Below, piece after piece: positions 1,290 to 32,997 of a DNA stretch of 64,000 nucleotides (position 1 is its first letter; every line of letters begins with the position of its first letter). Both the position numbers and the translations under genes were made by a program. The notes beneath the pieces are model-generated. The model was not told the DNA's origin. It did not search any database and worked only from the letters and a program-made list of their open reading frames with translations. Source of the DNA: an uncultured Armatimonadota bacterium (GTDB lineage: Bacteria > Armatimonadota > Fimbriimonadia > Fimbriimonadales > Fimbriimonadaceae); the NCBI GenBank assembly GCA_903927345.1, contig CAIYMO010000042.1, positions 62,001 through 126,000 of the forward strand. Reading direction: 5' to 3'.

Positions 1290-3253
1290 AGACCACCGAA
1301 CTGATCCCGCTGCTTTGGGTGGTTTTGGTGACCGTGGCGACGATCATGCTTGGCGTGTGGGCGACGAAGAAGTCGTCATCCGCCAGTGACTTCTTTGTGG
1401 CTGGCCGAAGCGTCAGCGTCTTCTGGAACGCGTCTGCGATTTCGGGCGAGTACCTCAGCGCGGCGAGCTTCATGGGCATCGCCGGGCTCGTGATGAAGAA
1501 CGGGTACGACGCTCTTTGGTATCCCGTTGGTTACGCCGCTGGATATCTGTTCCTGCTTCTGTTTATCGCCGGTCCGCTGAGGCGTTTTGGTGCGTACACC
1601 ATTCCCGATTTTGCCGAGGGACGGTTCCACTCGCCCGCCTTCCGTAAGGTCGCGGTTTCGTTCGTTCTGTTTATCGGCTTCTTCTACACCCTTCCGCAAA
1701 TGAAGGGCGCAGGCGTCACGATGGCAGGAATCATGGGCTGGCCGTACTGGGTCGGAATTCTGGTCGTCGGCACGGTTATCACGTTTAACGTTGCCATCGG
1801 CGGAATGAAGGGAATCACGCTCGTTCAGGCCGCGCAGTATTGGATCAAGGTCTTCGCGATTTCGATTCCGCTATTTGTTGTCATGTCGGTTGTTGGCTTC
1901 TACAACAAGCCGCTCGAAACAGCGCGCGCCGATGCAAAAGGGATCCCTTCGATTCCGGGCGATGTCATCAAGATGAAGGGTCAGGCGGCGGCTCCGAACA
2001 ACGCGTTGTCGCTTTCGGCAGCTCGAGTTTCGCTGGTTAAGTTCGAGACGGACACCAAGCTGGCCGCGGTTTCGGTGAACCCCAAGCCGAAGCCAGGGGA
2101 CGTTTTTGACGCGAGCCAAGCGATCTCGGCGGTGGGTTCGACTCTCACCATTGACTCAAAGAGCAAGGATATTGCGATTCCTAAGGACACCCTCGTGCAA
2201 GTCACTCCGTTTGATGTGACCAACGCCGAAGGCAAAACGAGCAAGGCATCGCTGAAGCTGGAGTTCGCCGATAAGGCGGAGATTCGGGTGACTGCTCCAG
2301 AGAACCAGCCGGCGGCGGCGCCCAATGCGCCAGCGAACGGTAAGTGGCTCAACCCATTTGGACCGCTCACCAGTAAGAACGGCTATCCGCTTTTGTACAC
2401 GTATTCTTTGATCATCGCCTTGGTCTGCGGAACTGCGGGATTGCCACACATTCTCGTCCGCTTCTATACGAATCCCGACGGTAAGTCCGCTAAGCGGACG
2501 ACGCTTTGGGTCATGGTGATGCTCGGTGCTTTTTACGTGTTCACCCCGATTTGGGGCTCGCTGGGTCGGCTCGCGATGCCGATTCTTTACGCCTCCAACA
2601 GCACCGACTCGGCGGTGATTAAGCTGCCGATGATGGTGGATGGCGGTGGAGTGCTTGGCGCAATGCTGAGCGGCATCACTTCGGCGGGTGCGTTTGCCGC
2701 GTTCATGTCGACCTTCTCTGGTCTGCTCGTCTCGATGTCGGGAGCGTTTGCCCACGACATTTACGGCAAAATCTTGAAGCCTTCTTCTGCGCCTGAAGAG
2801 CGACTGAAGATGTTCAAGTTCGCGGCGATCGGAATCGGCGCGGTCTCGATGATGCTCGGCTTGCTGGTCGAGAGCTTTGACATCGCGATGATGGTCGGTT
2901 GGGCGTTTGCGATTGGTGCGGCCTCCTACTTCCCTCTCTTGCTCCTCGGCGCGTGGTGGCGTGGACTCACGGCAAAGGGTGCGGCGACGGGAATGCTTCT
3001 CGGCGGCCTACTCAGCTTGGCGGCGATCATTACCACGATGCTTGTCGATAAGAAGGTTCTCACCCTTGAGCTTTCGCCATTGGTGCGCTCGCTGATGGAG
3101 CAGCCCGCAATTTGGGCAGTTCCGCTGTCGCTGTTGCTGATGGTGTTTGTAAGCAAGGCGACGGCGCGCGAGGTTCCTGAGGATGCCGATACGATCATGC
3201 TGAGGCTCCACGCTCCGGAGGAGCTGGGGCACTCGAAGGATTACATCAGCTAA
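1286..3253 (+). CDS. sodium/solute symporter, ActP-like (SSS family)
   Basis: A 655-residue polytopic membrane protein of the solute:sodium symporter family, closest in feel to the cation/acetate symporters that pair with DUF485 proteins. It probably imports a short monocarboxylate with Na+. It opens with a membrane helix, then the SSS-like stretch around SDFFVAGRSVSVFWNA, followed by many helices. A hydrophilic insert of about 140 residues (roughly 210-350), rich in Lys, Asp, Ala and beta-prone sequence, separates two helices and makes the protein about 100 residues longer than E. coli ActP (549 aa). Start is GTG at 1286, overlapping the DUF485 stop. Substrate is inferred from family pairing only. 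Confidence 0.85.
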   Translation: MKTTELIPLLWVVLVTVATIMLGVWATKKSSSASDFFVAGRSVSVFWNASAISGEYLSAASFMGIAGLVMKNGYDALWYPVGYAAGYLFLLLFIAGPLRRFGAYTIPDFAEGRFHSPAFRKVAVSFVLFIGFFYTLPQMKGAGVTMAGIMGWPYWVGILVVGTVITFNVAIGGMKGITLVQAAQYWIKVFAISIPLFVVMSVVGFYNKPLETARADAKGIPSIPGDVIKMKGQAAAPNNALSLSAARVSLVKFETDTKLAAVSVNPKPKPGDVFDASQAISAVGSTLTIDSKSKDIAIPKDTLVQVTPFDVTNAEGKTSKASLKLEFADKAEIRVTAPENQPAAAPNAPANGKWLNPFGPLTSKNGYPLLYTYSLIIALVCGTAGLPHILVRFYTNPDGKSAKRTTLWVMVMLGAFYVFTPIWGSLGRLAMPILYASNSTDSAVIKLPMMVDGGGVLGAMLSGITSAGAFAAFMSTFSGLLVSMSGAFAHDIYGKILKPSSAPEERLKMFKFAAIGIGAVSMMLGLLVESFDIAMMVGWAFAIGAASYFPLLLLGAWWRGLTAKGAATGMLLGGLLSLAAIITTMLVDKKVLTLELSPLVRSLMEQPAIWAVPLSLLLMVFVSKATAREVPEDADTIMLRLHAPEELGHSKDYIS

Positions 3254-3266
3254 GACAGAGATTCTT

Positions 3267-3336
3267 TTGGGATATGCATCCAAATCATTGCATATCCCAA
3301 ATGCGTATCGTATAATGCAACTCAAAGGTTGCATTA
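3267..3336 (+). promoter_or_regulatory. promoter with two inverted repeats, likely ArsR operators
   Basis: A perfect 12-bp inverted repeat (TTGGGATATGCA at 3267-3278, its complement at 3289-3300) overlaps a likely -35 (TTGCAT, 3289-3294). A TATAAT -10 lies at 3311-3316, 16 bp away. A second 9-bp inverted repeat (TAATGCAAC at 3313-3321, complement at 3328-3336) covers the -10 and the start of the transcript and abuts the ATG. Both share an ATGCA core. Autorepression by the ArsR protein encoded in the operon is the simplest reading. The first repeat could also terminate the symporter transcript. Confidence 0.6.
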
Positions 3337-3813
3337 ATGGAAATCACGAAAACCTCAGACGCTCTTAGCAGCGAACTCGTCGTCAAAGCTCCGCTCGAAA
3401 AGGCGTGGGCGGCGTTCACCACCAAGGAGGGCTGGGAGTCTTGGTTTAGCGATAAGGTGACTAGCGACTTTCAGGTTGGCAGCCCGCTGGTGATGTACTT
3501 TGAGGGCTACGGCGAGAACACCGGAACGGTGGTTGAGCGCGAGGAGCACAAGTCGTTTGCCTACCAGTGGCACCCGGGCGAAGGAGATTGGGAATCGCGG
3601 CCGGTCGAAGAAAAGACCACGGTTCGGTTCACCATTGAGCCTGTTGATGGCGGGACAAAGATCACGATGGTCGAGTCCGGCTTCAGCAAGGTTCTCGAAA
3701 CTCGACGACCAAAGGCGTTCGAGGACAACACTGGCGGCTGGAGCTACATGATGAAGCAGATCGTTCGATGGCTGGAGGACGACGTCCGGCAGTCCGGTTC
3801 GATCAAGGACTAA
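3337..3813 (+). CDS. SRPBCC (AHSA1-like) domain protein
   Basis: A 158-residue soluble protein of the START/Bet v 1-like SRPBCC superfamily in its AHSA1 form. The N-terminal stretch around VVKAPLEKAWAAFTTKEGWESWF is the typical first strand and helix, followed by alternating beta strands (GTVVEREEHKSFAYQW) and a long C-terminal helix. These proteins form a hydrophobic cavity; the ligand is unknown here. It is followed one base later by an ArsR gene, a very common pairing in which the regulator controls the SRPBCC gene. No Shine-Dalgarno is evident; the leader instead holds an inverted repeat. Confidence 0.85.
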   Translation: MEITKTSDALSSELVVKAPLEKAWAAFTTKEGWESWFSDKVTSDFQVGSPLVMYFEGYGENTGTVVEREEHKSFAYQWHPGEGDWESRPVEEKTTVRFTIEPVDGGTKITMVESGFSKVLETRRPKAFEDNTGGWSYMMKQIVRWLEDDVRQSGSIKD

Positions 3814-3814
3814 G

Positions 3815-4123
3815 ATGGCCTGCCACAAGATCTTTGAAGCTCTCGGCGATCCCACTCGGTTGGCGATCGTCGAGCGGCTATCAATCAATGGTCCTACCCC
3901 GACAGTTGAACTGGTGAGCGACCTCGGGATGACCCGTCAGGCGGCGACGAAACACCTCCAGATCTTGGAAAACTCGGGGATTGTGCGGAGCGAGACCAAG
4001 GGCAGGGTGATCCTTCGGATGGTCGAGCCTGCGGCGATGCACGAGGCGAAGGACTGGATGGATCGCCACGCTCAGCGTTGGAGTCGGCGGTTGGATGCTT
4101 TGGCGAGCTATCTAGACAGTTAG
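3815..4123 (+). CDS. ArsR family transcriptional regulator
   Basis: A 102-residue winged-helix repressor. It opens with the ArsR pattern IFEALGDPTRLAIVERL, continues with a recognition helix region (MTRQAATKHLQILENSGIV) and a wing (SETKGRVILRM). It lacks the ELCVCD-type metal-binding cysteines; its only Cys is residue 3, so it belongs to the non-metal ArsR group often paired with AHSA1-like proteins. It is co-transcribed with the SRPBCC gene and most likely represses the operon through the inverted repeats at 3267-3336. The operator assignment is inference. Confidence 0.9.
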   Translation: MACHKIFEALGDPTRLAIVERLSINGPTPTVELVSDLGMTRQAATKHLQILENSGIVRSETKGRVILRMVEPAAMHEAKDWMDRHAQRWSRRLDALASYLDS

Positions 4124-4129
4124 ATTGCG

Positions 4130-4156
4130 CCCGGAAGTTGCTCACCAACTTCCGGG
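4130..4156 (+). terminator. hairpin after ArsR gene
   Basis: A perfect 11-bp stem (CCCGGAAGTTG, 4130-4140, paired with 4146-4156) with a 5-nt loop starts 6 bases after the ArsR stop. No T tract follows, so it may be a factor-assisted or bidirectional terminator. Confidence 0.6.
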
Positions 4157-4201
4157 AGATCTAAACAGATTTCAAACATCTCAGTCGTAAAATCCCGAGA
4201 T

Positions 4202-4882
4202 ATGAAGCTCGTTGCCATTGCCGCCGCTGGAGTTTTGCTTGCTACTTTGACGATTGCGTATCAACAAAGACCCGCGCAGAATCCGATCAAGCCCGCTCTG
4301 ACGGACACCATGAAGGCAAACATTTATGCCGACAACTGGTTCATGCTTTACATCAACGGCAAGCCGGTTGCGGTTGATCCAATTGATTTTTTGCCGCACA
4401 ACGTCGTTTCAATCGACCTTTTGCCTGAGTATCCGATGACGATTGCAGTGCTGGCGAAGGACAACGCGGATCCAAAGACAGGGTGTGAGTACGGCGATCA
4501 CATTGGAGATGCCGGCTTTATTCTCAAGTTCGCAGACGGAACCACAACGAACGCGAGTTGGAAGGCGAAGAGCTTCTTTACGGGGCCGTTGAATGGCGAT
4601 ACCCAGAATCCCAGGGTGAGCCACCTCCCTCTTCCGGCAAACTGGTTCGCCAAGGACTTTGACGACTCTGCGTGGAAGAATGCGAAGGAGTATTCTGAGC
4701 AGGAGGTTGGTCCGAAGAAAACCTTTTATGACTTCGATTTTGGTGGTGCGAAGTTCATCTGGACGGACGATATCGCCCTGGATAACACCGTGATCTTCCG
4801 GACGAAGATTGATAAGCCGGGCTGGCGGGCTCGGTGGACGACGAAGCCGGATTTGGATGTCTCGAAATCGCCGAACGAGTGA
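4202..4882 (+). CDS. secreted beta-sandwich protein of unknown function
   Basis: A 226-residue protein with an N-terminal hydrophobic segment (residues 2-20) that is either a signal peptide or a membrane anchor. The rest contains Trp/Phe-rich strands such as DNWFMLYINGKPV, ADGTTTNASWKAKSFF and DFDDSAWKNAKEY. That pattern is seen in jelly-roll, sugar-binding-like modules of glycoside hydrolases and lectins, but I cannot name a family. It stands alone between the ArsR hairpin and an LLM oxidoreductase. A TAAAAT box (4188-4193) ends 8 nt before the ATG. Possible roles are carbohydrate binding or a structural extracellular role; both are guesses. Confidence 0.7.
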   Translation: MKLVAIAAAGVLLATLTIAYQQRPAQNPIKPALTDTMKANIYADNWFMLYINGKPVAVDPIDFLPHNVVSIDLLPEYPMTIAVLAKDNADPKTGCEYGDHIGDAGFILKFADGTTTNASWKAKSFFTGPLNGDTQNPRVSHLPLPANWFAKDFDDSAWKNAKEYSEQEVGPKKTFYDFDFGGAKFIWTDDIALDNTVIFRTKIDKPGWRARWTTKPDLDVSKSPNE

Positions 4883-4929
4883 TTGGTTGAAATGAGATAG
4901 GCTACGCGTTTGGGCGTAGGAACTTGATC

Positions 4930-5973
4930 ATGGAAATTGGGATTGACAGCTTTGCGGCGGTTCATAAGGACCCTTTGGATGGCTCGATGCTATCGGCAGC
5001 GGACCGTTTGGAGATGCTTCTTGAGGAGATTCAGACGGCCGACGAGGTGGGGCTAGATGTTTTCGGAGTCGGTGAGCACCACCGGGCGGAGTTTTTGGAT
5101 TCGGCTCCGGCGATCATACTTGCCGCCGCCGCTGCGAAGACTTCTCGAATCAAGCTGTCGAGCGCGGTGACCGTTATCAGTGCCGCCGATCCGGTTCGGG
5201 TGTTTCAGGAGTTTGCGACGTTGGATTTGATTTCCAAGGGTCGCGCCGAGATTGTGGTTGGGCGTGGATCGTTTGGGGAGGCCTTTCCGTTGTTCGGCCT
5301 TGATACCGATGATTACGACGACCTGTTTACTGAAAAGCTTGACCTGTTGCTGACGTTGCAAAAGGAAGTTAACGTGCATTGGAACGGGCGTCATCGACCG
5401 GCGTTGACCGGCCAGGGAGTGTATCCGCGGCCGTTCCAGAAGGAGATCCCGGTTTGGTTGGGGGTTGGGGGAACTCCGCAGTCGTTCATTCGCGCAGGGC
5501 TATTAGGTTTGCCGCTGATGGTGGCGATTATCGGTGGTGAATTCCGGCGATTCCGACCCCTCGTGGATTTGTACCGGCAGGCGTATCTCGAGTCTGGTCA
5601 CCCCGAAGACGGGATGAAGGTCGGGGTGCATGCGTTCGGGTTTGTGGGTGAGACGACCGAGTTGGCGAAGGACACGTTCTTCCCCGGCTGGTTCCAGATG
5701 TTTACTCAGATTGGGCGAGAACGCGGATGGCCGCCTCCGTCTCGGGCACAGTTTGAGGCTCTTTGTGGAGACAGCGGGGCTTACTTGATCGGCGATCCGG
5801 CGAGGGTTGCGGAGAAGGTGTTGGCGGCGAGTGAGGCATTGGGGGGGATTCAAAGGTTGACCTTCCAGAAGAGCTCGGCGCTGGTCCGGCATGAGCAAAT
5901 GAAGAACTCGATCCGGCTGTTGGGGAACGAAGTCGCACCACTGGTACGGGCGAAGTCTGGAAAGGTAGCCTGA
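4930..5973 (+). CDS. LLM class flavin-dependent oxidoreductase
   Basis: A 347-residue luciferase-like monooxygenase (TIM-barrel, FMN or F420 dependent). Supporting segments are the N-terminal MEIGIDSFAAV strand, EVGLDVFGVGEHHRAEF, which is typical of the family's second strand, and the mid-protein ARAEIVVGRGSF-like segment read here as GRAEIVVGRGSF. The C-terminal part (GDPARVAEKVLAASEALGG) is also characteristic. The substrate is unknown. I start at the ATG at 4930 because AGGA at 4918-4921 is well spaced for it; a TTG at 4924 is the alternative. An M20 amidohydrolase follows 4 bases after the stop, so the two are probably co-transcribed. Confidence 0.9.
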   Translation: MEIGIDSFAAVHKDPLDGSMLSAADRLEMLLEEIQTADEVGLDVFGVGEHHRAEFLDSAPAIILAAAAAKTSRIKLSSAVTVISAADPVRVFQEFATLDLISKGRAEIVVGRGSFGEAFPLFGLDTDDYDDLFTEKLDLLLTLQKEVNVHWNGRHRPALTGQGVYPRPFQKEIPVWLGVGGTPQSFIRAGLLGLPLMVAIIGGEFRRFRPLVDLYRQAYLESGHPEDGMKVGVHAFGFVGETTELAKDTFFPGWFQMFTQIGRERGWPPPSRAQFEALCGDSGAYLIGDPARVAEKVLAASEALGGIQRLTFQKSSALVRHEQMKNSIRLLGNEVAPLVRAKSGKVA

Positions 5974-22843: not shown

Positions 22844-24463
22844 CTAAACGGAGGCTTTCTTTTTGCTCTCGAGGGCGGCCTTCACTAAACCTTGGAACAG
22901 CGGATGTGCCCGGTTTGGTCGGCTCTTGAACTCGGGGTGAGCTTGGGTGGCAACGAAGAACGGGTGCGCCGGAACTTCGACCATCTCGACCAGGCGATAG
23001 TCTGGCGAAACGCCTGAGATGATCATGCCTTGCTCTTGGAGCTTCTCGCGGAAGTCATTGTTGACTTCGTAGCGGTGACGGTGGCGCTCGGTGATCCGGG
23101 TCGCTCCGTAAAGCTTTGCGCTCAGAGTGTCGTGGACGAGGTTACAGGGGTAGGAGCCGAGTCGCATCGACGCGCCCTTGTCCTTGACGTCTTTCTGCTC
23201 GGGAAGCAGGTGAATGACCGGATACGGAGGGTGTGGGAGCATCTCTTCGGAGTTCGCGCCGACCAAGCCGCAGACGTTTCTGGCGTATTCGATGACCGCC
23301 ATCTGCATTCCAAGGCAGATTCCGAAGAATGGCAACCCAGACTCTCGAGCGATACGAATTGCCTCGATTTTGCCTTCAATTCCACGACCACCAAAACCAG
23401 GGCCAACCACCAAGCCATCGATGTCCGCCAGCGCGGCTTCGGGAGTCAGTTCTCCTTCGAGCGTGTCGCTCTCGATCCATTTGACATTGACCTTACAGTC
23501 GTTGGGGATGCCCGCGTGGACCAGGGCTTCGGCGATTGACTTGTAAGCGTCGCCGTTCGACGTGTACTTTCCGACTACCGCGATCGTCACTTCGTTCGAC
23601 GGGTTCTTCAGAGTGTTGACTAGCTTGCGCCACTCTTCCATTTGATCCGGGCGATGCTCGAGACCGAGCCGCTTGGAAACGAAGTCGCCGAGTCCGAGGT
23701 CTTCGTACATCAACGGAACTTCGTAGACCGTGTCCAGGTTCTGTGATTGGATGACTGCCTCTTTGGGAACACCGCAGAACAGACTGATTTTCTCAATCAC
23801 TTCGGTTTCCATCGTGACTTCGCAGCGACAAACCAAGACGTCTGGTGCGATGCCAATTTCGCGCAGCTTGTAAACGCTGTGCTGGGTTGGCTTGGTTTTA
23901 ACTTCGTGCCAAGGGCCAACGGTGGGAACCATGGTGACGTGAACGTACATCGTGTTTTCGTAACCGAGGTCGGTTCGCATCTGTCGAATGGCTTCGAGGA
24001 ACGGAAGCGATTCGATGTCTCCAACTGTGCCGCCGATTTCCGCAATGACGACGTCGGCTTCTTGCTCGACGGCGACCTTTTGGACGAGGGCTTTGATTTC
24101 GTTTGTGACGTGGGGAATGACTTGGACGGTGCCGCCAAGATAGTCTCCGCGTCGTTCGGCTTCAATGACGTTCTTGTAAACCTTTCCAGTGGTGACGCTA
24201 CTGCCTTTGGAGCAGTTAACGTCCATGAAGCGCTCGTAGTGACCAAGGTCTAGGTCGGTTTCTGCGCCGTCTTCGGTGACGAACACCTCACCATGCTGGA
24301 ACGGGTTCATGGTGCCGGCGTCGACGTTGATATAGGGGTCAAGCTTGATGGGAGCGACGGTAAAGCCTCGGTTTCGAAGAAGACGCCCAAGACTCGCGGT
24401 GGCAACTCCTTTGCCGATTCCGCTCACAACTCCGCCCGTAACAAAGATATATTTCGTCGCCAT
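22844..24463 (-). CDS. pyrG: CTP synthase
   Basis: A 539-residue enzyme making CTP from UTP, ATP and glutamine. The N-terminal amidoligase domain starts [17 protein letters not shown] (nucleotide-binding) and contains the [28 protein letters not shown] signature region. The C-terminal class I glutamine amidotransferase domain has the nucleophile Cys in FFGICLGMQ and the catalytic His/Glu in THAHPEF-like [12 protein letters not shown] start at the ATG at 24463 (AAGGG about 7 nt upstream) and not at 24487. It ends 3 bases from the convergent GNAT stop. Confidence 0.98.
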
Positions 24464-24607
24464 TGATGCCCTTTGGTTAAACCCCAAATAGGATGACGTT
24501 CAGCCAAATCGAAAAGAGCTGGCCAAGGGTGAAGGGGTTTAAAGGAGTATACATCTATCGCACCACTGCCACGGTGCCCCGGGGGTGCAGATCATCAGGC
24601 AATTAGC

Positions 24608-25813
24608 CTAGATATTCCCGGTGCGAAACGCCTCAATCAAGCGAGTGAAGTTCAGCTCCGTGCCCAACATCTTCTCGTACGCTGGGTTAAGTCGATCGAT
24701 GTCGTCGCCGGTGCTTTTCACGGCTTTTAGAATCCGAGCCGCCTTGATCGGACCGCTGGTGAGTCGTAGTCCTTCGACGATTGAGCCGGTGATGATGGGC
24801 GCTGCAAACGACGTCCCCGACCAAGCAGCCGCAGATCCGTTCCAGTCAATGCTCACGATTCCGACTGCGGGAGCGCTGGAGACGATGCTTCGGCTGTAAT
24901 TGCTGAAGGGAGCCTTGGTGCGGTTGGTGTTCAATCCCGCGACGCTAATCACTGGGGTGTACCCCGCAGGGTACATGTCGGATTCAGTTCCGAGGTTCCC
25001 AGCGGCGGCAACGATTGTGATGTCGTAGTCTTTCACCCAATCGAGGACGTCGGAGAGTGCAACGATTCGCTCGGTCGATGCGAGGCTGACGTTAGCAACT
25101 TCGGCTCCGTTTACAACTGCGAATGCAAGACCCTTGATCAGTCGCCAAGCGGTTGCGATTCCATCGCTATCTGCAACTCGGCAGATGACAAATCGACTCT
25201 GCGGGCTGACCAAGTCAACGATCCCTGCGACCATTGATCCGTGTCCAACTTTCGAGTCAAACCGACCATCCCGGTCCGAGTCCACGCCCCGAGGCATGTC
25301 AAACGCGGGCAGACCTGGCTCGACCGTATTGATCGAAGCAACGACCTTGGACGTAAGATATGGCGCGTTTGGCGTCAAACCAGTGTCAAGAATGGCCACT
25401 TTGACCAATCGTCCCGAGGTGTTGGCAACGATTCGATTCCAACTGATTGACTGCAAGAAATTGAAGTTAAGGTTCGTGACCTTGATTCGGTCGCCGACAG
25501 CAGGAAGTGTCGACCCCTTTGAAGGAAGCTTCGCCTGACCTGCGGACTCAGGAGTCGTAAGGGACGCATCGTCTTCTGCCCAAACCACTCGGGGGTCTGA
25601 TGCCATCAGAAGTTGGTAAGTCGTAGTGCTTGTGCCTGCGGGGGTCGTAAACAGAACGAAGGGCGCTGGACCGGTATTGTCCGTTGGCGTAATGCCGTAG
25701 GTAAGCCCTACCTCGCTCGCTAGACTCGGATCCGACAGACGGCAAATCAGTGAACCTGCAAAAGAGGCTGACGCGCCGAGTGCGATGGCTAGGGCGAATA
25801 GAAACTTCTTCAT
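24608..25813 (-). CDS. secreted S8 family serine peptidase (subtilase)
   Basis: A 401-residue subtilisin-like protease. A signal peptide covers about residues 1-19. A short N-terminal region (20-130) may be an I9-like propeptide. The catalytic triad is Asp143 (VAILDTGL), His191 (GHGSMVAG) and Ser335 (WSGTSFAAP), with the oxyanion Asn273 (AAGN). All key residues are intact. Its ATG overlaps the stop of the CHAT-domain gene by 4 nt, so the two proteases are translationally coupled. It is the last gene of an ECF sigma - anti-sigma - CHAT - subtilase operon. It should act outside the cytoplasm, with the CHAT protein inside, unless export is regulated. Confidence 0.95.
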   Translation of the reverse strand: MKKFLFALAIALGASASFAGSLICRLSDPSLASEVGLTYGITPTDNTGPAPFVLFTTPAGTSTTTYQLLMASDPRVVWAEDDASLTTPESAGQAKLPSKGSTLPAVGDRIKVTNLNFNFLQSISWNRIVANTSGRLVKVAILDTGLTPNAPYLTSKVVASINTVEPGLPAFDMPRGVDSDRDGRFDSKVGHGSMVAGIVDLVSPQSRFVICRVADSDGIATAWRLIKGLAFAVVNGAEVANVSLASTERIVALSDVLDWVKDYDITIVAAAGNLGTESDMYPAGYTPVISVAGLNTNRTKAPFSNYSRSIVSSAPAVGIVSIDWNGSAAAWSGTSFAAPIITGSIVEGLRLTSGPIKAARILKAVKSTGDDIDRLNPAYEKMLGTELNFTRLIEAFRTGNI

Positions 25814-28392
25814 GAATTGGTTCCGGCGTAGGCTGTGACTCCACTCCAGTAATAAGGATGCGGCTTAAGCAGGCGAGTAATACATTTTGCTTCAAAAAGT
25901 GCTTCACACGCGGATTTGGACCTAGCAACCTGGTGATAGAACGAGGCAAAGAGGGTCATGCCGGCCTCGTCATCAAGGGGCCACATGCTCGCCAAAGTCC
26001 ACGCAGCACCGCGCGCAACGAAGGCTCTGGCAAACCCATCGGGCTCCGTTTGAGTCACCAAAGACATTGTCCCCGTATCGCACGCGGAAAGGGTGGCAAG
26101 CTCGACGGAGAGCTGGCTGAGGGCGATTTCGTAGGCGTAGAGCGGCCCATCGGGAAAAATCATTGCGGAAAGCGCCGGGCAGCTCGCTTGGTGTCGAGCA
26201 TGACCGACCAAGTGGAGGCAGCCTACGGACTCCGAAAGCATCGCCCTGGCTTCCTTTGCAGTTCGGATAATCCGGCAGTTTCCGAGCTGTTCGGCGACAA
26301 CGCGAGCCTCTTCATCAGCGAACTTCAGGTCCGGTGAACTGCCCAGCCAAACGACGTTCGGAGCTTTCGAGAGGTTCAGCTCTCGACCTTGGAGCTTGGG
26401 GTGGAACGAAACCGCCCACTCTTGACCCAAATCCACGGACGCACTCAGAAGCGACCACGGAATGCGCCAGCTCTGAACGTCTGGACAGATTAGCCGGGTC
26501 GAAGAGTCGAAGACATTTTTGAATCGAAGCGCGAGGTCCCGTGCCGCCCGCAAGATCGGCTCTGGGTTGGCGTCCGGCTGGACCATCGGAGCAAGCAAAT
26601 CGTAGGTCAGCCATTGAATTGCAGTTCGAAGGCTGTCTTGGGTGAGTCCCGTTGCTTCAGCGGTCGTGTTGCCGACCACGTACGTATCGCGTGGGGTCTC
26701 TGCGAGCAAAACCGCCCCCGAGACTTCGCCGAGCGTCGGCCTTGAATCCATCGCGATCTCCAGCAACGCCCTCGATGCGACCTTCTGGAACTTAGCGGTG
26801 GTGCGGACAAATGCGGGGCGGCGTTGCCCTGGTCCAGGCTCCACCGAGGTGTCGGCAGTTATCTCAGCTCTCGCTTCTTCCAGCAGTTGCAAAACGCGAG
26901 GGGAGACCAGCTTTCGATTCTTAAGCTCATCCAGAAGCGTGACGCTCCGAACCTGAGTCATCGCTTCGCGCAACTCCTCAATTCGGCTTGCGGTGGGCTT
27001 TGCAAGTAGCCATTCGAAGTACAGCTGGATCGCCGGGAGCTTGTCTTTTAGGTAGTTCGTACGTGCGCTGAGGCTCGAAAGTCCAATTCTGCCGAGCTGG
27101 ATCTCCTTGAACGCTCTTCGGAGATGAATGCCCGGTCGGGTTGATCGACAGGCGCGGATGTAATGCACCCTCCAGCCTAACCCGGCATACCCGTTCTCTC
27201 GAATGAGCTTTAGAGCCTGTGCAGTCCGATCAACCCCCAGCTCCGATTGCGCCAACAAGACCTGCACGAAGTGATAAGGCGAGTTTTTGCAAAGCTGTTC
27301 AAGCTCTGCAAAGTCCACTGACGGCTTATCCTTGCCAACCGAAGTGCGCAACAGCCCGAGCTCGGCCTTCGCTTGCCAACCACGGGCACCGCACTTTTCG
27401 TACAGACCTTTTGCCCGCCGAAACGCACGGTGGGCTCCTGCGGAATCTCCCTGAGACTCTAAAGCCTCCGCCTTGCCGAGGACGAGGTGGGCCCGATGAA
27501 CGGGGATTTTGACATTGTGAAGTGCGGACTCGTACGCCTCAATCGCCTCATCCCAGAGGTTGAGCTGATAGAACGCATCGCCCATGTATTCATCAACCCG
27601 CGATCGGTCAAGCGGTGAATCATGGAGCCTTTTGCTCACCTCCAAAAGTGCGTGGTGCGCGGCTTCGGGTTCGTTCAGAACGAGTTTGGCAAGAGCTACG
27701 TTGAGTCTGGCCAAATCCGCCTGATACTCGGCCCCCACTTTCTCCGCCATCTCGATGGTCCGCTCGGCAAATAGGATGGCTTCGCGAGCATCGCCACCGT
27801 ACAGGAAGCTCGAAGAAATTGACATTAACGCCGACGCCGCATCGGTTTCGAATCCCCCGTCAATCAACTGCGGAACCGCACGCAACAACACCTTCCGTGC
27901 CTCAACATTCCGATCTTGGTACAGCAGTGCGTTACCGAGGTTGAGCAGGGCGCGGGCAGCTAGTCCAGGTTCACCAATAGCTTCGAGTCGACGGGCGACC
28001 CGCTTCCCCAACCGAATAGCATTCTCAATCTCGCCACAACGCGCATAGCTATCGATCGCCCCGATCGTAAACGCGAGACGGCTCACCGGATCCTTGGCAC
28101 GCTTTCCAGCGTCCACAAAACACTGCGCACTTTCCGACCACCGACCGTTCAGTCGCTCGTAGATTCCCCCGGCGCGTAGAACCCACGCTGGATCCTCTGA
28201 GTTGGGCAACAGTGTCCGCCAGTGGGAGCCGACGCGGTTGAGCTTACGAGGCGAAACCCCGTAGTAGCTCAGAACGCGGTCGAAGTAGGCTCGGCTTGTC
28301 CCTTGTGGTAACTTTGATGCCGACGAAAACCCCTTTCCTTGTTCAATCTGGTCAACGATTTCAGCCGGAGACATCCATAACCTCGGTTGCAC
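25810..28392 (-). CDS. TPR-CHAT domain caspase-like protein
   Basis: An 860-residue cytoplasmic protein. Residues about 60-430 are a run of helical repeats of TPR type (examples: ARALLNLGNALLYQDRNVEARKVLL, ADAFYQLNLWDEAIEAYESAL, read here with GDAFYQL). The C-terminal third is a CHAT domain, the caspase/separase-related protease fold. The predicted catalytic His731 is in LHLVGHA and Cys771 in LSACDTGT, and the domain ends near YYWSGVTAYAG. A second in-frame ATG at 28374 is an alternative start. The gene overlaps the anti-sigma gene by 32 bp and the subtilase by 4 bp. CHAT proteases usually cut a specific protein when triggered; the anti-sigma factor or the subtilase could be the target, as inference. 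Confidence 0.93.
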   Translation of the reverse strand: MQPRLWMSPAEIVDQIEQGKGFSSASKLPQGTSRAYFDRVLSYYGVSPRKLNRVGSHWRTLLPNSEDPAWVLRAGGIYERLNGRWSESAQCFVDAGKRAKDPVSRLAFTIGAIDSYARCGEIENAIRLGKRVARRLEAIGEPGLAARALLNLGNALLYQDRNVEARKVLLRAVPQLIDGGFETDAASALMSISSSFLYGGDAREAILFAERTIEMAEKVGAEYQADLARLNVALAKLVLNEPEAAHHALLEVSKRLHDSPLDRSRVDEYMGDAFYQLNLWDEAIEAYESALHNVKIPVHRAHLVLGKAEALESQGDSAGAHRAFRRAKGLYEKCGARGWQAKAELGLLRTSVGKDKPSVDFAELEQLCKNSPYHFVQVLLAQSELGVDRTAQALKLIRENGYAGLGWRVHYIRACRSTRPGIHLRRAFKEIQLGRIGLSSLSARTNYLKDKLPAIQLYFEWLLAKPTASRIEELREAMTQVRSVTLLDELKNRKLVSPRVLQLLEEARAEITADTSVEPGPGQRRPAFVRTTAKFQKVASRALLEIAMDSRPTLGEVSGAVLLAETPRDTYVVGNTTAEATGLTQDSLRTAIQWLTYDLLAPMVQPDANPEPILRAARDLALRFKNVFDSSTRLICPDVQSWRIPWSLLSASVDLGQEWAVSFHPKLQGRELNLSKAPNVVWLGSSPDLKFADEEARVVAEQLGNCRIIRTAKEARAMLSESVGCLHLVGHARHQASCPALSAMIFPDGPLYAYEIALSQLSVELATLSACDTGTMSLVTQTEPDGFARAFVARGAAWTLASMWPLDDEAGMTLFASFYHQVARSKSACEALFEAKCITRLLKPHPYYWSGVTAYAGTNS

Positions 28393-28897
28393 TCGGAATG
28401 ATGAAATGGACTCCGCCGCTCACCACCACGAGGTCTGATTGATCGAGGCTTTCGACGATAAACGCCACCCGATTATTAGTATCCGAGTCCAGTGGGGAGT
28501 CATCTTTCCAAGCACTCGATTCTGCCTCGGGCATCGAGAGCATGACTTGCCATCCGGCGGGGAGCTTTGTATACATCACCCGGAACTGGGTGGAGTCGTC
28601 GCCTAAGAGTAGTTGGAAATCGTCAGCGAGCTTAGCCCGTGCTCCACTGAGCTGGAGCGATCCACTGAGCAGGCGAAGTCGAGAACTCTTGAATGGCATC
28701 AACGAATAAGCAGCTTCGACTAACGCTTGGGGCGCCGCAGTAATTGGATAGGCAAATCCTGAGAACATCGCCCGGGCTTCTCCCAAAAGCTTCTGACACT
28801 CTTGGCAAGTCTCCAAGTGGGTTTGCGCCTCGACATCTTCTCGCCCCTCGGCAAGCGCGCAGATCGCATTCCACATTCTCTTTGCGTGAGTTGTCAT
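28361..28897 (-). CDS. zinc-finger anti-sigma factor (ZAS-like)
   Basis: A 178-residue protein whose N-terminus carries the anti-sigma zinc motif: His27, Cys31 and Cys34 in HLETCQECQ (H-x3-C-x2-C). No membrane helix is visible, so it appears to be a soluble ZAS protein. The C-terminal part has beta-rich segments (GGVHFIIPSATEV) of unknown role. It follows the ECF sigma gene after 43 bases and overlaps the CHAT gene by 32 bp. It most likely sequesters the upstream sigma factor. I use the ATG at 28897; an earlier in-frame start at 28921 gives eight further residues of no clear meaning. Confidence 0.85.
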   Translation of the reverse strand: MTTHAKRMWNAICALAEGREDVEAQTHLETCQECQKLLGEARAMFSGFAYPITAAPQALVEAAYSLMPFKSSRLRLLSGSLQLSGARAKLADDFQLLLGDDSTQFRVMYTKLPAGWQVMLSMPEAESSAWKDDSPLDSDTNNRVAFIVESLDQSDLVVVSGGVHFIIPSATEVMDVSG

Positions 28898-28940
28898 GTT
28901 CCAGCACCTAAGAGAAGCCAAAGCAGATCAGTAATACATT

Positions 28941-29531
28941 TCAATTTAAAAATCCTCCGTCTTCCAGAATTTTCCTGAGCTTGGCCAGACAGCGCGAGCG
29001 AGTGGGACCTAGCGAACCCATCGGCATTCCAAGTTCCTCGCAGACCTGATCATAGGTTGATTCCTGCAAGTACAGCAAGCTGAGCAGCTTTGCGCACTTC
29101 CCTCCCAGTAGTTTCAAACCGGTTCGGATAGACAGCGCTTGCGAGGCGATCACCGCTTCCTCTTCGGCCGATGCCTCCTCGGATGCGACAAGCTCGTTGA
29201 GGTCCATTCCCGTGGTTGTCCGGGAGGAGTGAGTTCGGTTTGCGCGCAGAGTTCTGTATGCAGCGTTCGCGGCAGTCACGGCGATCCACTTGGGGAGTGC
29301 GCCGGTCGCCTCAATGCGGTCTAAGTTTTGGTAGAGCGAGAGGAAGGTCGATTGAAAAACGTCAGCACTTTCTTCCTCGGACAGACCCTGTCGCTTGGCG
29401 ACAGAATAGACGAGCCCACTGAAATGGTCGACCAGGTGTTTCCAGGCCAACTGGTCTCCTTTACGACACCTTCCTACCAGCTGCTCAAGATCTGACCGTT
29501 GTGCAATCGGACTCTTCAACGGCGCGATCAT
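28941..29531 (-). CDS. ECF family RNA polymerase sigma factor
   Basis: A 196-residue sigma-70 family protein. Region 2 spans about residues 30-95 (DHFSGLVYSVAKRQGLSEEESADVFQSTFLSLYQNLDRIE, then LPKWIAVTAANAAYRTLR), and region 4 spans about 135-190 (LLSLLYLQESTYDQVCEELGMPMGSLGPTRSRCLAKLRKIL), ending with the recognition helix. There is no region 1 or 3. It heads a four-gene operon with a ZAS anti-sigma factor, so it probably drives its own operon and perhaps distant genes. The upstream region contains TGGGACTTA, faintly like an ECF -35, but I would not call the promoter. Confidence 0.92.
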   Translation of the reverse strand: MIAPLKSPIAQRSDLEQLVGRCRKGDQLAWKHLVDHFSGLVYSVAKRQGLSEEESADVFQSTFLSLYQNLDRIEATGALPKWIAVTAANAAYRTLRANRTHSSRTTTGMDLNELVASEEASAEEEAVIASQALSIRTGLKLLGGKCAKLLSLLYLQESTYDQVCEELGMPMGSLGPTRSRCLAKLRKILEDGGFLN

Positions 29532-29697
29532 ACCAGACCCACCCCCTTAACCCACCCGCATAAGTCCCAGGAAAGACGATGCACTTCTGACGTCGTTGCC
29601 GCCCACTTCGCCGTGTCACGATTTCATGGACACGTTTAATTACACGGGGGATTTTCTCGTTCGGCGACAGTTGGTCTTGGGTGGAGTAGCCACAGAT

Positions 29698-31944
29698 ATG
29701 CCAAGTCTAAAAAACCGAACTGAAGTCCACACCATCGCGATCCTTGGCACCTATCCTCCGCGCCGGTGTGGCATCGCGACGTTTACCGCAGATTTGGCCG
29801 CCGCATTCCAGTCCGCTGACCCCCTCGTGCAAGTCGACCCATTCGCCATGAGCGATCAGGGCTACAACTACTCTGCGGAAGTCACTCACATTGACGTGGA
29901 AGATCGTTCGAGCTACACACAAACTGCCGAATCGCTGAATGCGCGGCACTACGATGTTCTTTCGATTCAACACGAATACGGAATCTTTGGCGGCGACGCG
30001 GGACGCTACCTGCTTGACCTTATCCGTACCGCGAAAATGCCGGTCGTCACTACGTTGCACACTGTTCTTCGTAATCCGACTCCCGACCAGCGGGCGGTGA
30101 TGGATGAGCTGCTCCAACTTTCGACAAGAGTCGTCGTTATGAGCCGGACCGCCATCGACCTGCTGAACCGAGTCCACTCTGTTGACGCCTCCAAAATCGA
30201 CTTCATTCCCCATGGGATCCCGCACATCCCCATCAGCGCGGGAATTGAGACCCGAAAGCGGCTTGGCGGGAACGGCCCGATTCTTTTGACCTTCGGTTTG
30301 CTTTCGCCGGACAAGGGCATTGAGCACGTCATTAACGCGCTCCCCGCCGTACTTGCTGAGCATCCCGAAGCGAAATACGTCGTCGTTGGAGCAACCCATC
30401 CTCACGTTAAGTCGTTCAGTGGCGAGCAGTATCGTGAGAGTCTGCACAAGCTCATTGCCGAGCTTGGCGCGTCGGATAACGTCGAGTTTGTCGACGAATT
30501 CGTGAGCCTCGATCAACTCGTCGCCTACCTTGCGGCAACCGACTTCTACATCACTCCTTATCTTAATCCCGCCCAGATCACCTCGGGGACTCTTGCCTAC
30601 TCAATGGGTGCCGGCAAGGTCGTGATCTCCACTCCTTACGAGTACGCAAAAGAAGTTCTGGCTAACGGTCGGGGAGTCCTGGTTCCGTTCGCAAACTCCG
30701 CCGCCATCGCAGACGCAGTGTTGGAAGGGTGCTCGAACACCGAGTCGCGGCAGAAGATGGGCGATCTCGCTGCCAAGTACGGCTCCCTCATGTACTGGAA
30801 ACGAGTTGGACAGCTCTACATCGACAGCTTCAATCGCGCGATCGAAGAGTCGAAACTCATCCCGATCACCAGTATTTCTCAATCGAGCCTGCCGCTTCCG
30901 GAACTGAGCCTGAACTACCTTGAAGCGCTCACTGATGACACTGGAATTCTTCAGCACGCCACCTTCGACATTCCTAATCGTCACGAAGGCTATTGTGTCG
31001 ACGACAATGCCCGGGCGCTGCTGTTCACCCTGGAACAACAGCACGATCCGAGAATGGTGCAACTCCAAGCGCGGTATCTCGCGTTTGTCGCCCACGCTCT
31101 CAATCCGCTCAACCTTCGCTTCCGAAACTTTAAGTCGTACGAACGGACCTGGCTGGAGACCGAAGGTTCCGAAGATTCTCAGGGCCGTTCCCTGTGGGCG
31201 GTCGGCGCAACTGCCGCGCGAAGCAACATCCCTGGTCACGCGAAGCTCGCGTCAAAGCTCTTTGAACTTGCTGCTCCGAATCTACTCGACACGTCGAGCC
31301 CCCGAACCTGGGCGTATACGATCCTCGGGGCGGTCACCTATTTGGAACGCTATCCGGATTCACTGAGCGCAATGGCTCTGATTGAGACGGGAGCCACCAA
31401 ACTCGAGGCCTGCTTTGCGGCGCATGCGACCTCTGACTGGAAGTGGATGGAGCCAAGGCTCGCCTATGCCAACGCACGAATTCCGCAAGCTCTGATGCTC
31501 GCGGGAACCATCCTTGAGCGGCCAGCTTTGATTGCGCGAGGAGTTAGCGTTCTGAGCTGGCTCGTTGATAAGCAGCGGACGAGCAGCGGGCTGTTCTGTC
31601 CCGTGGGAGCCGCTGGTGCCTCGCCGGCTGACTTTGGAACAGTGCAATTTGACCAGCAGCCGATTGAAGCAAGTAGCACCCTCGCCGCCTGTTTGACCGC
31701 TTATCAGATCACGAACCAAAACCGCTTCCGTGTTGCCGCCGAGAGCTGCCTTGCGTGGTTCTTGGGCGCCAACGCGCTTGGAGTGTCGCTGGTGAATGCC
31801 GAAACCGGAGGCTGTGCAGATGGCCTTGAGGCGACTGGTGTCAACCAGAACCAAGGGGCCGAGTCAACACTCGCCTACCTTGCCGCACTTTGCGAAATGA
31901 AAGCACAGTTAAGTCCGTCAGTGGTCATCCATGAAGTCAAGTGA
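29698..31944 (+). CDS. GT4 glycosyltransferase with C-terminal alpha-helical domain
   Basis: About 748 residues from the ATG at 29698 (GGAG lies 11 nt upstream); earlier in-frame ATGs at 29596 and 29626 are possible but weaker. The N-terminal half is a GT-B family 4 glycosyltransferase: TYPPRRCGIATFTADL, the QHEYGIFGGDAGRYL acceptor loop, FGLLSPDKGIEHVI and ITSGTLAYSMGAGKVVISTPYEYA at the donor site. The second half (about 400-748) is an alpha-helical, (alpha/alpha)6-like domain (RHEGYCVDDNARALLF). This two-domain form is often next to a GH130 gene, as it is here with a 14-bp overlap. A mannose-based glycan is likely; which linkage is unknown. Confidence 0.87.
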   Translation: MPSLKNRTEVHTIAILGTYPPRRCGIATFTADLAAAFQSADPLVQVDPFAMSDQGYNYSAEVTHIDVEDRSSYTQTAESLNARHYDVLSIQHEYGIFGGDAGRYLLDLIRTAKMPVVTTLHTVLRNPTPDQRAVMDELLQLSTRVVVMSRTAIDLLNRVHSVDASKIDFIPHGIPHIPISAGIETRKRLGGNGPILLTFGLLSPDKGIEHVINALPAVLAEHPEAKYVVVGATHPHVKSFSGEQYRESLHKLIAELGASDNVEFVDEFVSLDQLVAYLAATDFYITPYLNPAQITSGTLAYSMGAGKVVISTPYEYAKEVLANGRGVLVPFANSAAIADAVLEGCSNTESRQKMGDLAAKYGSLMYWKRVGQLYIDSFNRAIEESKLIPITSISQSSLPLPELSLNYLEALTDDTGILQHATFDIPNRHEGYCVDDNARALLFTLEQQHDPRMVQLQARYLAFVAHALNPLNLRFRNFKSYERTWLETEGSEDSQGRSLWAVGATAARSNIPGHAKLASKLFELAAPNLLDTSSPRTWAYTILGAVTYLERYPDSLSAMALIETGATKLEACFAAHATSDWKWMEPRLAYANARIPQALMLAGTILERPALIARGVSVLSWLVDKQRTSSGLFCPVGAAGASPADFGTVQFDQQPIEASSTLAACLTAYQITNQNRFRVAAESCLAWFLGANALGVSLVNAETGGCADGLEATGVNQNQGAESTLAYLAALCEMKAQLSPSVVIHEVK

Positions 31945-32936: not shown

Positions 32937-32987
32937 TTTGCACACGTGTGCAAAGTCGAGTAATATCTGTTTGCACACCTGTGCAAA
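32937..32987 (+). promoter_or_regulatory. LacI-gene promoter with two palindromic operators
   Basis: Two 18-bp sites, TTTGCACACGTGTGCAAA (32937-32954) and TTTGCACACCTGTGCAAA (32970-32987), have centres 33 bp apart, about three helical turns. TTGCAC (32938-32943) and TAATAT (32961-32966), 17 bp apart, form a good -35/-10. The first site covers the -35 and the second the likely transcription start. This fits autoregulation by the LacI protein encoded just downstream, with possible looping between the sites. Confidence 0.8.
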
Positions 32988-32997
32988 CAGCCTCGTT

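Follow-up and report, generated by a model that had tools for sequence, protein, structure and literature searches.

Four genes lie together on the minus strand of the window (the whole 64,000-nucleotide stretch that was analysed). They run in the order ECF sigma factor, putative anti-sigma factor, TPR-CHAT protease and S8 subtilase, with the following features.

29527 to 29535, minus strand: extended -10-like element TGGTATGAT, weak, overlapping the annotated start codon of the sigma gene
28941 to 29531, minus strand: ECF sigma factor, 196 aa (TIGR02937, Sigma70_r2, match to SigW, sigma clade)
28361 to 28897, minus strand: putative soluble anti-sigma factor, 178 aa, ATG start (ZAS motif, AF2 model and gene order; the match to RsiW, 5wuq_C, reaches only E 0.0089)
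28796 to 28819, minus strand: candidate zinc-ligand motif of the anti-sigma factor, H27-x3-C31-x2-C34 (sequence; 13 of 25 Armatimonadota rows)
28622 to 28648, minus strand: flexible loop of the same protein, residues 84 to 92, with Arg87 (codon 28637 to 28639), proposed cleavage site (conservation and low pLDDT)
25810 to 28374, minus strand: TPR-CHAT protease, 854 aa from ATG (PF12770, TPR families, AF2 model)
26200 to 26202, minus strand: CHAT catalytic His725 (His731 in the 860-aa numbering), H in 72 of 72 complete CHATs
26080 to 26082, minus strand: CHAT catalytic Cys765 (Cys771 in the 860-aa numbering), C in 72 of 72 complete CHATs
24608 to 25813, minus strand: S8 subtilase with a signal-peptide-like N-terminus, 401 aa (PF00082, intact triad, match to subtilisin BPN')

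A first-pass annotation of this DNA had described the four genes as an operon, and all four open reading frames were found on the minus strand in the order that it gave. The 4-bp overlap that it reported between the CHAT and S8 genes was present as well. Its 32-bp overlap between the anti-sigma and CHAT genes did not hold up, as it needs a GTG start at 28392, which yields a protein of 860 aa. With the ATG at 28374 the protein has 854 aa and the overlap is 14 bp, which is probably the correct value, since several orthologs (L063, L064, L065, L070, L073, L118 and L125) show 14 bp. The source genome has a single CHAT gene and more than 20 sigma-type matches.

The gene order recurs beyond the source genome, in two phyla. 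The CHAT protein had matches at E <= 1e-10 in 27 of 61 genomes (the source genome and 60 relatives). These were near full length in 14 of the 27, the source genome and 13 others at 30-43% identity, and the remaining ones covered the CHAT part only. When 291 genomes of the phylum were searched with a profile, 46 matched at E <= 1e-40, from 27 of 156 genera. We read the surroundings of 49 Armatimonadota loci, 29 closer ones and 20 of other classes. A same-strand sigma gene was found upstream in 28 of the 29 closer loci and an S8 gene directly downstream in 28, the two misses being contig ends, so that both neighbours were present in 27 of 27 untruncated loci. In the other classes, S8 was downstream in 17 of 20 loci and a same-strand sigma gene upstream in 14, with a divergent sigma gene in at least two more. 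Among 20 control loci encoding non-orthologous TPR-CHAT proteins of the same relatives, none had such an S8 gene, and one had a weak same-strand sigma match (E 3e-5). The order is thus conserved beyond chance, with 27 of 27 untruncated close loci against 0 of 20 controls with such an S8. Independent evidence comes from the non-core loci alone, since the neighbour HMMs had been built on the core loci.

Of 396 Actinomycetota genomes, 33 gave a match at E <= 1e-25. The first 20 loci read had sigma upstream in 17, S8 downstream in 11 and S8 upstream in 6. A second reading of 21 loci, 17 of them new and 4 re-read, found all four components in 9, often with a divergent CHAT gene; L156-L158 are counted in two of the locus lists. 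Classical Actinomycetes often have a CHAT gene that diverges from the sigma gene and from the gene in the second slot of the operon instead of running in their direction, which counts against the protease-gated switch proposed below.

Several loci depart from the common arrangement. In L074, L075, L076 and L078 the order is sigma, CHAT, anti-sigma-like protein, S8; this variant occurs within the same genus, and genome G005 carries both versions. One relative (G002, L071) has two tandem S8 genes after CHAT, at 2599-3780 and 3994-5214. The operon at L094, on contig JADZEW010000021.1, is bacterial even though the contig is titled 'Methanoregulaceae archaeon', and that genome is probably mislabelled.

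Profile searches assigned the first gene to the sigma factors (TIGR02937, E 9e-20; Sigma70_r2, E 6.7e-10), and its best solved relative was SigW (5wuq_A, E 3.7e-9). The 73 module sigma factors formed one clade with a support of 100/100 against the 15 other ECF factors of the source genome, which points to a module-specific sigma lineage, although other ECF groups could still fall inside the clade because the outgroup comes from one genome.

We then considered the region upstream of the sigma gene in 27 loci, after dropping the near-copy L118. In 11 of these, TGNTANNNT stands a short way upstream of the sigma start (for the null, a mean of 1.4 and a maximum of 6 of 500), and in 8 of the 27 TGATACA does so (null 0.12). 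The TGNTANNNT extended -10-like element looks like a housekeeping promoter, with the reservation that the ORF starts are uncertain; if it is real, the sigma gene starts further downstream. An autoregulated ECF promoter was considered and set aside, as a 7-mer and 8-mer scan of the same regions gave little beyond shuffles. The best 7-mer was present in 23 loci, the shuffles reaching maxima of 19-21, and the best 8-mer in 13 loci, the shuffles reaching 12-13; the scan gave no evidence in these 27 loci that the sigma factor activates its own promoter.

In 9 loci, including L062, L119, L121 and L128, a gene next to the sigma gene and divergent from it encodes a small protein that looks secreted (about 126-160 aa where the ORF is cleaner). 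It might be a target gene or a substrate. It had no Pfam match in L119 and L128, and one below the cut-off in L062.

The protein in the second slot was more difficult to name. It had no Pfam match over the cut-off (the best was DUF7925, E 0.097) and no NCBIfam match, and in a relative, L112, zf-HC2 came up at E 0.013, below the cut-off. When the profile of the slot family was compared with solved structures, the best plausible match was RsiW (5wuq_C, E 0.0089), ranking below a chance-looking dodecin (E 0.0017). We regard the RsiW match as suggestive, not significant: the partner of RsiW, SigW, is the best match of the window sigma factor. Csx30 was not among the sequence matches of the profile, though the two may still be related.

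By profile comparison, the slot proteins of the various groups are homologous. Those of other Armatimonadota classes matched the Actinomycetota group at 99.5% and the core group at 98.8%, and the order variant matched the core at 98.3%; the core compared directly with Actinomycetota gave 83.6-90.5%. Judged from these profiles, the second gene is one inhibitor-like family throughout. Its Actinomycetota members had sub-threshold CarboxypepD_reg matches (best E 2.4e-5), absent from the slot protein of the window itself. The AF2 model of the window protein (pLDDT 89.9) has four helices followed by a beta sandwich, with the helical domain at residues 1-66 and the sandwich at about 93-167. Foldseek returned nothing for this model at E <= 0.001, with weak immunoglobulin-like matches only; for the beta domain the best Z was 6.7 (VIA), from which we named no family.

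In the window, the HxxxCxxC motif and one further ligand that characterize a ZAS zinc site are present as H4, H27, C31 and C34, the fourth ligand being His4 where orthologs have a Cys. Together with the position of the gene, the motif suggests that the 178-aa protein is a soluble ZAS-type anti-sigma factor, a label that is weak by profile. The motif was found in 13 of 25 Armatimonadota alignment rows (the window and 12 of 24 others) and was lost in 12; other Armatimonadota classes often show H-x4-C-x2-C, and no motif of the HxxxCxxC type was seen by eye in the Actinomycetota slot rows.

This distribution bears on a first alternative, in which the anti-sigma factor would itself be a direct zinc or redox sensor of the ZAS type, with CHAT and S8 as members or effectors of the regulon that do not act on it. 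The four-ligand site of the window and of half of the other Armatimonadota rows fits that reading, as do the two protease genes, proteases being common regulon members of stress sigma factors. Yet the zinc site is gone from the 12 other rows and, by eye, from Actinomycetota, whereas an arginine, Arg87, and its neighbours stay. As so many lineages are without the zinc site, a zinc or redox switch cannot be the shared mechanism, and we hold this alternative to be unlikely.

Arg87 is the sole position identical in 65 of 65 slot proteins, the next best being identical in 59. In a wider set, an Arg occupies this position in 75 of 76 proteins, and the 76th has an Arg one residue further on. The preceding residue is Ala or Val in 61 of the 76 and the following one Gly or Ser in 55. 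Five loci lie outside these counts: L069, where the contig ends, L121, L122 and L129, whose reading frames were not clean, and L146, which yielded no slot ORF; L158 is absent from the 65-row set and included in the 76-row set. In the anti-sigma model, residues 81-90 form the block of lowest confidence (mean pLDDT 56). Since this Arg persists where zinc ligands have disappeared and lies in a seemingly unordered loop, it has the appearance of a protease site. That it is the place where CHAT cuts the anti-sigma factor is a plausible proposal to which we give somewhat less than an even chance, and Arg87 may instead be structural or touch the sigma factor.

The third gene encodes a CHAT domain (PF12770, E 4.7e-27, 95.6 bits for a cut-off of 24) after TPR repeats recognized by Pfam. 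The His731/Cys771 dyad (GTG numbering) proposed for it in the first-pass annotation was found as described, and so was the Asp143/His191/Ser335 triad of the subtilase. The dyad is intact in all 72 complete CHAT copies, the window included, with one truncated copy besides; the CHAT protein is thus predicted to be an active rather than an inactive protease. Among solved folds, its AF2 model (pLDDT 84, pTM 0.78) came nearest to that of Csx29 complexed with Csx30 (8eey; Z 27.1, rmsd 10.5, 504 residues aligned). Foldseek also matched 8eey_B, at E 5.9e-14, both domains being common to separase as well. Fungal separase (5fby) gave Z 22.6 with rmsd 3.4 over 298 residues, and Arg-specific gingipain (1cvr) Z 17.6 with rmsd 3.4 over 240. 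Both separase and gingipain R accept an Arg at P1 and bind it through an acidic residue located after strand 1; separase uses a second acidic residue as well (PMC4626109, in the excerpts available). The corresponding Glu after strand 1, E695, and D808 (860-aa numbering) are each present in 72 of 72 module CHATs. They do not single out these CHATs, because they are equally common in the controls (19 of 20 and 20 of 20).

Position 783 in the same numbering, 12 residues past the catalytic Cys, is Glu in the module, Asp in 3 order-variant loci and Gly in 17 of 20 controls, and could be a family-specific specificity residue. A search of a plasmid collection gave one weak CHAT match to the window protein and no match for S8; for ECF54-like loci it gave one match, in Streptomyces chartreusis, with no genes annotated there.

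The last gene is an S8 subtilase (PF00082, E 6.3e-22, 78.7 bits for a cut-off of 21.8; subtilisin BPN', E 6.8e-20), and its Asp/His/Ser triad is intact in 64 of 64 complete copies, with two truncated copies besides. Export of this protease had been proposed from its N-terminus. The signal-like segment is present in the window but is not universal: by simple hydropathy, the classical actinobacterial S8 proteins are mostly without one (3 of 18 rows of the second Actinomycetota reading have it). In L156, L157, L158 and L181-L191, S8 seems by the same criterion to have changed compartment relative to Armatimonadota. If S8 is exported in the lineage of the window, it cannot reach the anti-sigma factor there.

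A second alternative is that CHAT is an effector protease under control of the sigma factor, acting on S8 or on cell proteins in a stress or suicide programme. In its favour, nearly all loci have CHAT and S8 near each other, and the unit combines a secreted with a cytosolic protease. S8 was matched by two PADLOC models, that of a generic subtilase (E 5.8e-11) and that of IetS (E 1.3e-6), the first of which could be taken in the same sense. However, the S8 of the window lineage looks exported and CHAT shows no signal, the other three proteins were without PADLOC matches, no Cas7-11/RAMP protein (PF03787) was matched in the source genome, and no CRISPR-like repeats were found within the window. 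The flanking genes, read from their translations, look ordinary, and the invariant Arg is left unexplained. We therefore find this alternative decidedly improbable. Of the two options that the first-pass annotation had suggested, signalling or self-destruction, a self-destruct cascade is not supported: none of the four genes was seen to encode a toxin or a pore, and S8 alone was matched by PADLOC. A self-destruct or defence island was dropped as the leading reading.

Rfam gave no match at 24000-30200. DUF4382-type lipoproteins adjoin the operon in 6 loci (L065, L066, L099, L101, L103 and L107), and PF14321 was confirmed in both of those tested, L065 and L103. Further along the window, a pair of 18-bp palindromes, TTTGCACACGTGTGCAAA and TTTGCACACCTGTGCAAA (one mismatch), occupies 32939-32956 and 32971-32988 just upstream of a LacI-family gene; they are probable operators.

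The four genes form a real, conserved operon, which probably acts as a protease-gated sigma switch. The sequences show how the unit is built, that it is conserved and that its parts are inherited together; we infer inhibition, cleavage, signal and regulon as follows. The soluble anti-sigma factor would use its N-terminal helical domain to keep the ECF sigma factor inactive, and the TPR part of the CHAT protein would sense a cytoplasmic partner or signal. The activated cysteine protease would then cut the anti-sigma factor after Arg87, in the loop that separates the helices and first strands from the remainder of the beta sandwich. The cleaved inhibitor would fall apart and the sigma factor drive its regulon; the subtilase, secreted in the lineage of the window, would serve this response as its other protease. 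We give a probability of about 0.5 to the reading in which CHAT frees the sigma factor by cutting its inhibitor. Cleavage of the anti-sigma factor by CHAT, which had been raised in the first-pass annotation, is the best-supported reading, given the invariant Arg in a loop and a closest fold, Csx29, that is the cleaver of Csx30; taken by itself, we consider this step an even bet.

Among known systems, the SigW/RsiW pair resembles the module: of the solved structures, SigW matches the sigma factor best, and RsiW is the best plausible match of the anti-sigma factor, at the E value of 0.0089 given above. In contrast to RsiW, the window anti-sigma factor is predicted to be soluble and to carry a beta sandwich where RsiW has its membrane anchor, and there is no sign of site-1/site-2 proteolysis. 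Separase shares the helical-repeat N-terminus and the clan CD protease domain, and takes Arg at P1 according to the same excerpts; it is, however, eukaryotic, cuts cohesin and has about 12% identity to the window CHAT.

The ECF54 group is closer in gene content. Carboxypeptidase, subtilase and CHAT proteins are encoded near ECF54 sigma factors, which were proposed from this context to be perhaps controlled by proteolysis without an anti-sigma factor (PMC8999054, in the passages available, citing Casas-Pastor 2021 and Huang 2015). Our loci likewise combine a sigma factor, CHAT and a subtilase with a small protein that weakly matches CarboxypepD_reg (carboxypeptidase-regulatory-like), below the cut-off in the relatives. 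The sigma factors of ECF54-like loci fall in one clade with that of the window. The sub-threshold matches in the Actinomycetota slot proteins fit the reported 'carboxypeptidase', which suggests that the latter is the slot inhibitor. The differences are that ECF54 was published without an anti-sigma factor, whereas the window has a putative ZAS protein with intact zinc ligands in the slot, and that S8 looks secreted in the window and has no signal-like segment in most classical actinobacterial loci. As the published trait of lacking an anti-sigma factor seems to fail here, we did not file the system as ECF54. The first-pass annotation knew of no description of this four-gene set. For ECF54, CHAT, subtilase and carboxypeptidase have been documented next to a sigma factor; the set with an anti-sigma factor is not part of that record, and our literature searches, in open-access papers only, found no description of it.

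A third alternative follows the published view of ECF54, the proteases acting on the sigma factor itself and keeping it low without any anti-sigma factor. It has been put forward for that group from gene context (PMC8999054, same passages). It is at odds with a window protein that has the motif and position of an anti-sigma factor and whose relatives adjoin ECF54-like sigma factors too, and with an S8 that seems to lie outside the cytoplasm in the lineage of the window, and we rate it as very unlikely.

The protease-gated switch would work like the output arm of Craspase (type III-E CRISPR). Csx29 cleaves Csx30 in a loop of its C-terminal domain, and the N-terminal domain of Csx30 binds CASP-sigma, whose DNA binding Csx30 blocks (PMC10028731, in the sections available). 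Here too there are a TPR-CHAT protease, an inhibitor with a presumed N-terminal sigma-binding part and an ECF sigma factor, with Csx29 as the top fold match. With no RAMP protein matched in the source genome and no CRISPR-like repeats in the window, however, the module is not a CRISPR system, and it differs further in having a putative zinc anti-sigma factor for Csx30, an added S8 and a near-invariant candidate cut site. The Craspase cut sites in Csx30 differ and are non-conserved (A|S, L|D and M|K; PMC11106740, in the portion available), which weakens the strict analogy, since an invariant site is not predicted by it. We propose, as a speculation that may well prove wrong, that the module is a widespread, CRISPR-free and ancient version of the Craspase output arm, present in at least two phyla, in which an ECF sigma factor is released when a separase-like TPR-CHAT protease makes one cut in its beta-sandwich anti-sigma factor, after the near-invariant Arg. 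If so, type III-E CRISPR put an RNA trigger on a pre-existing protease-sigma switch, and the module is a candidate background for the origin of its Csx29/Csx30/CASP-sigma arm. ECF54 would not be free of anti-sigma factors, correcting the published view, and there would be a cytoplasmic, caspase- or separase-like way to fire a sigma factor, unlike the membrane proteolysis of RseA and RsiW. The function of ECF54-like loci would then become testable by one point mutation.
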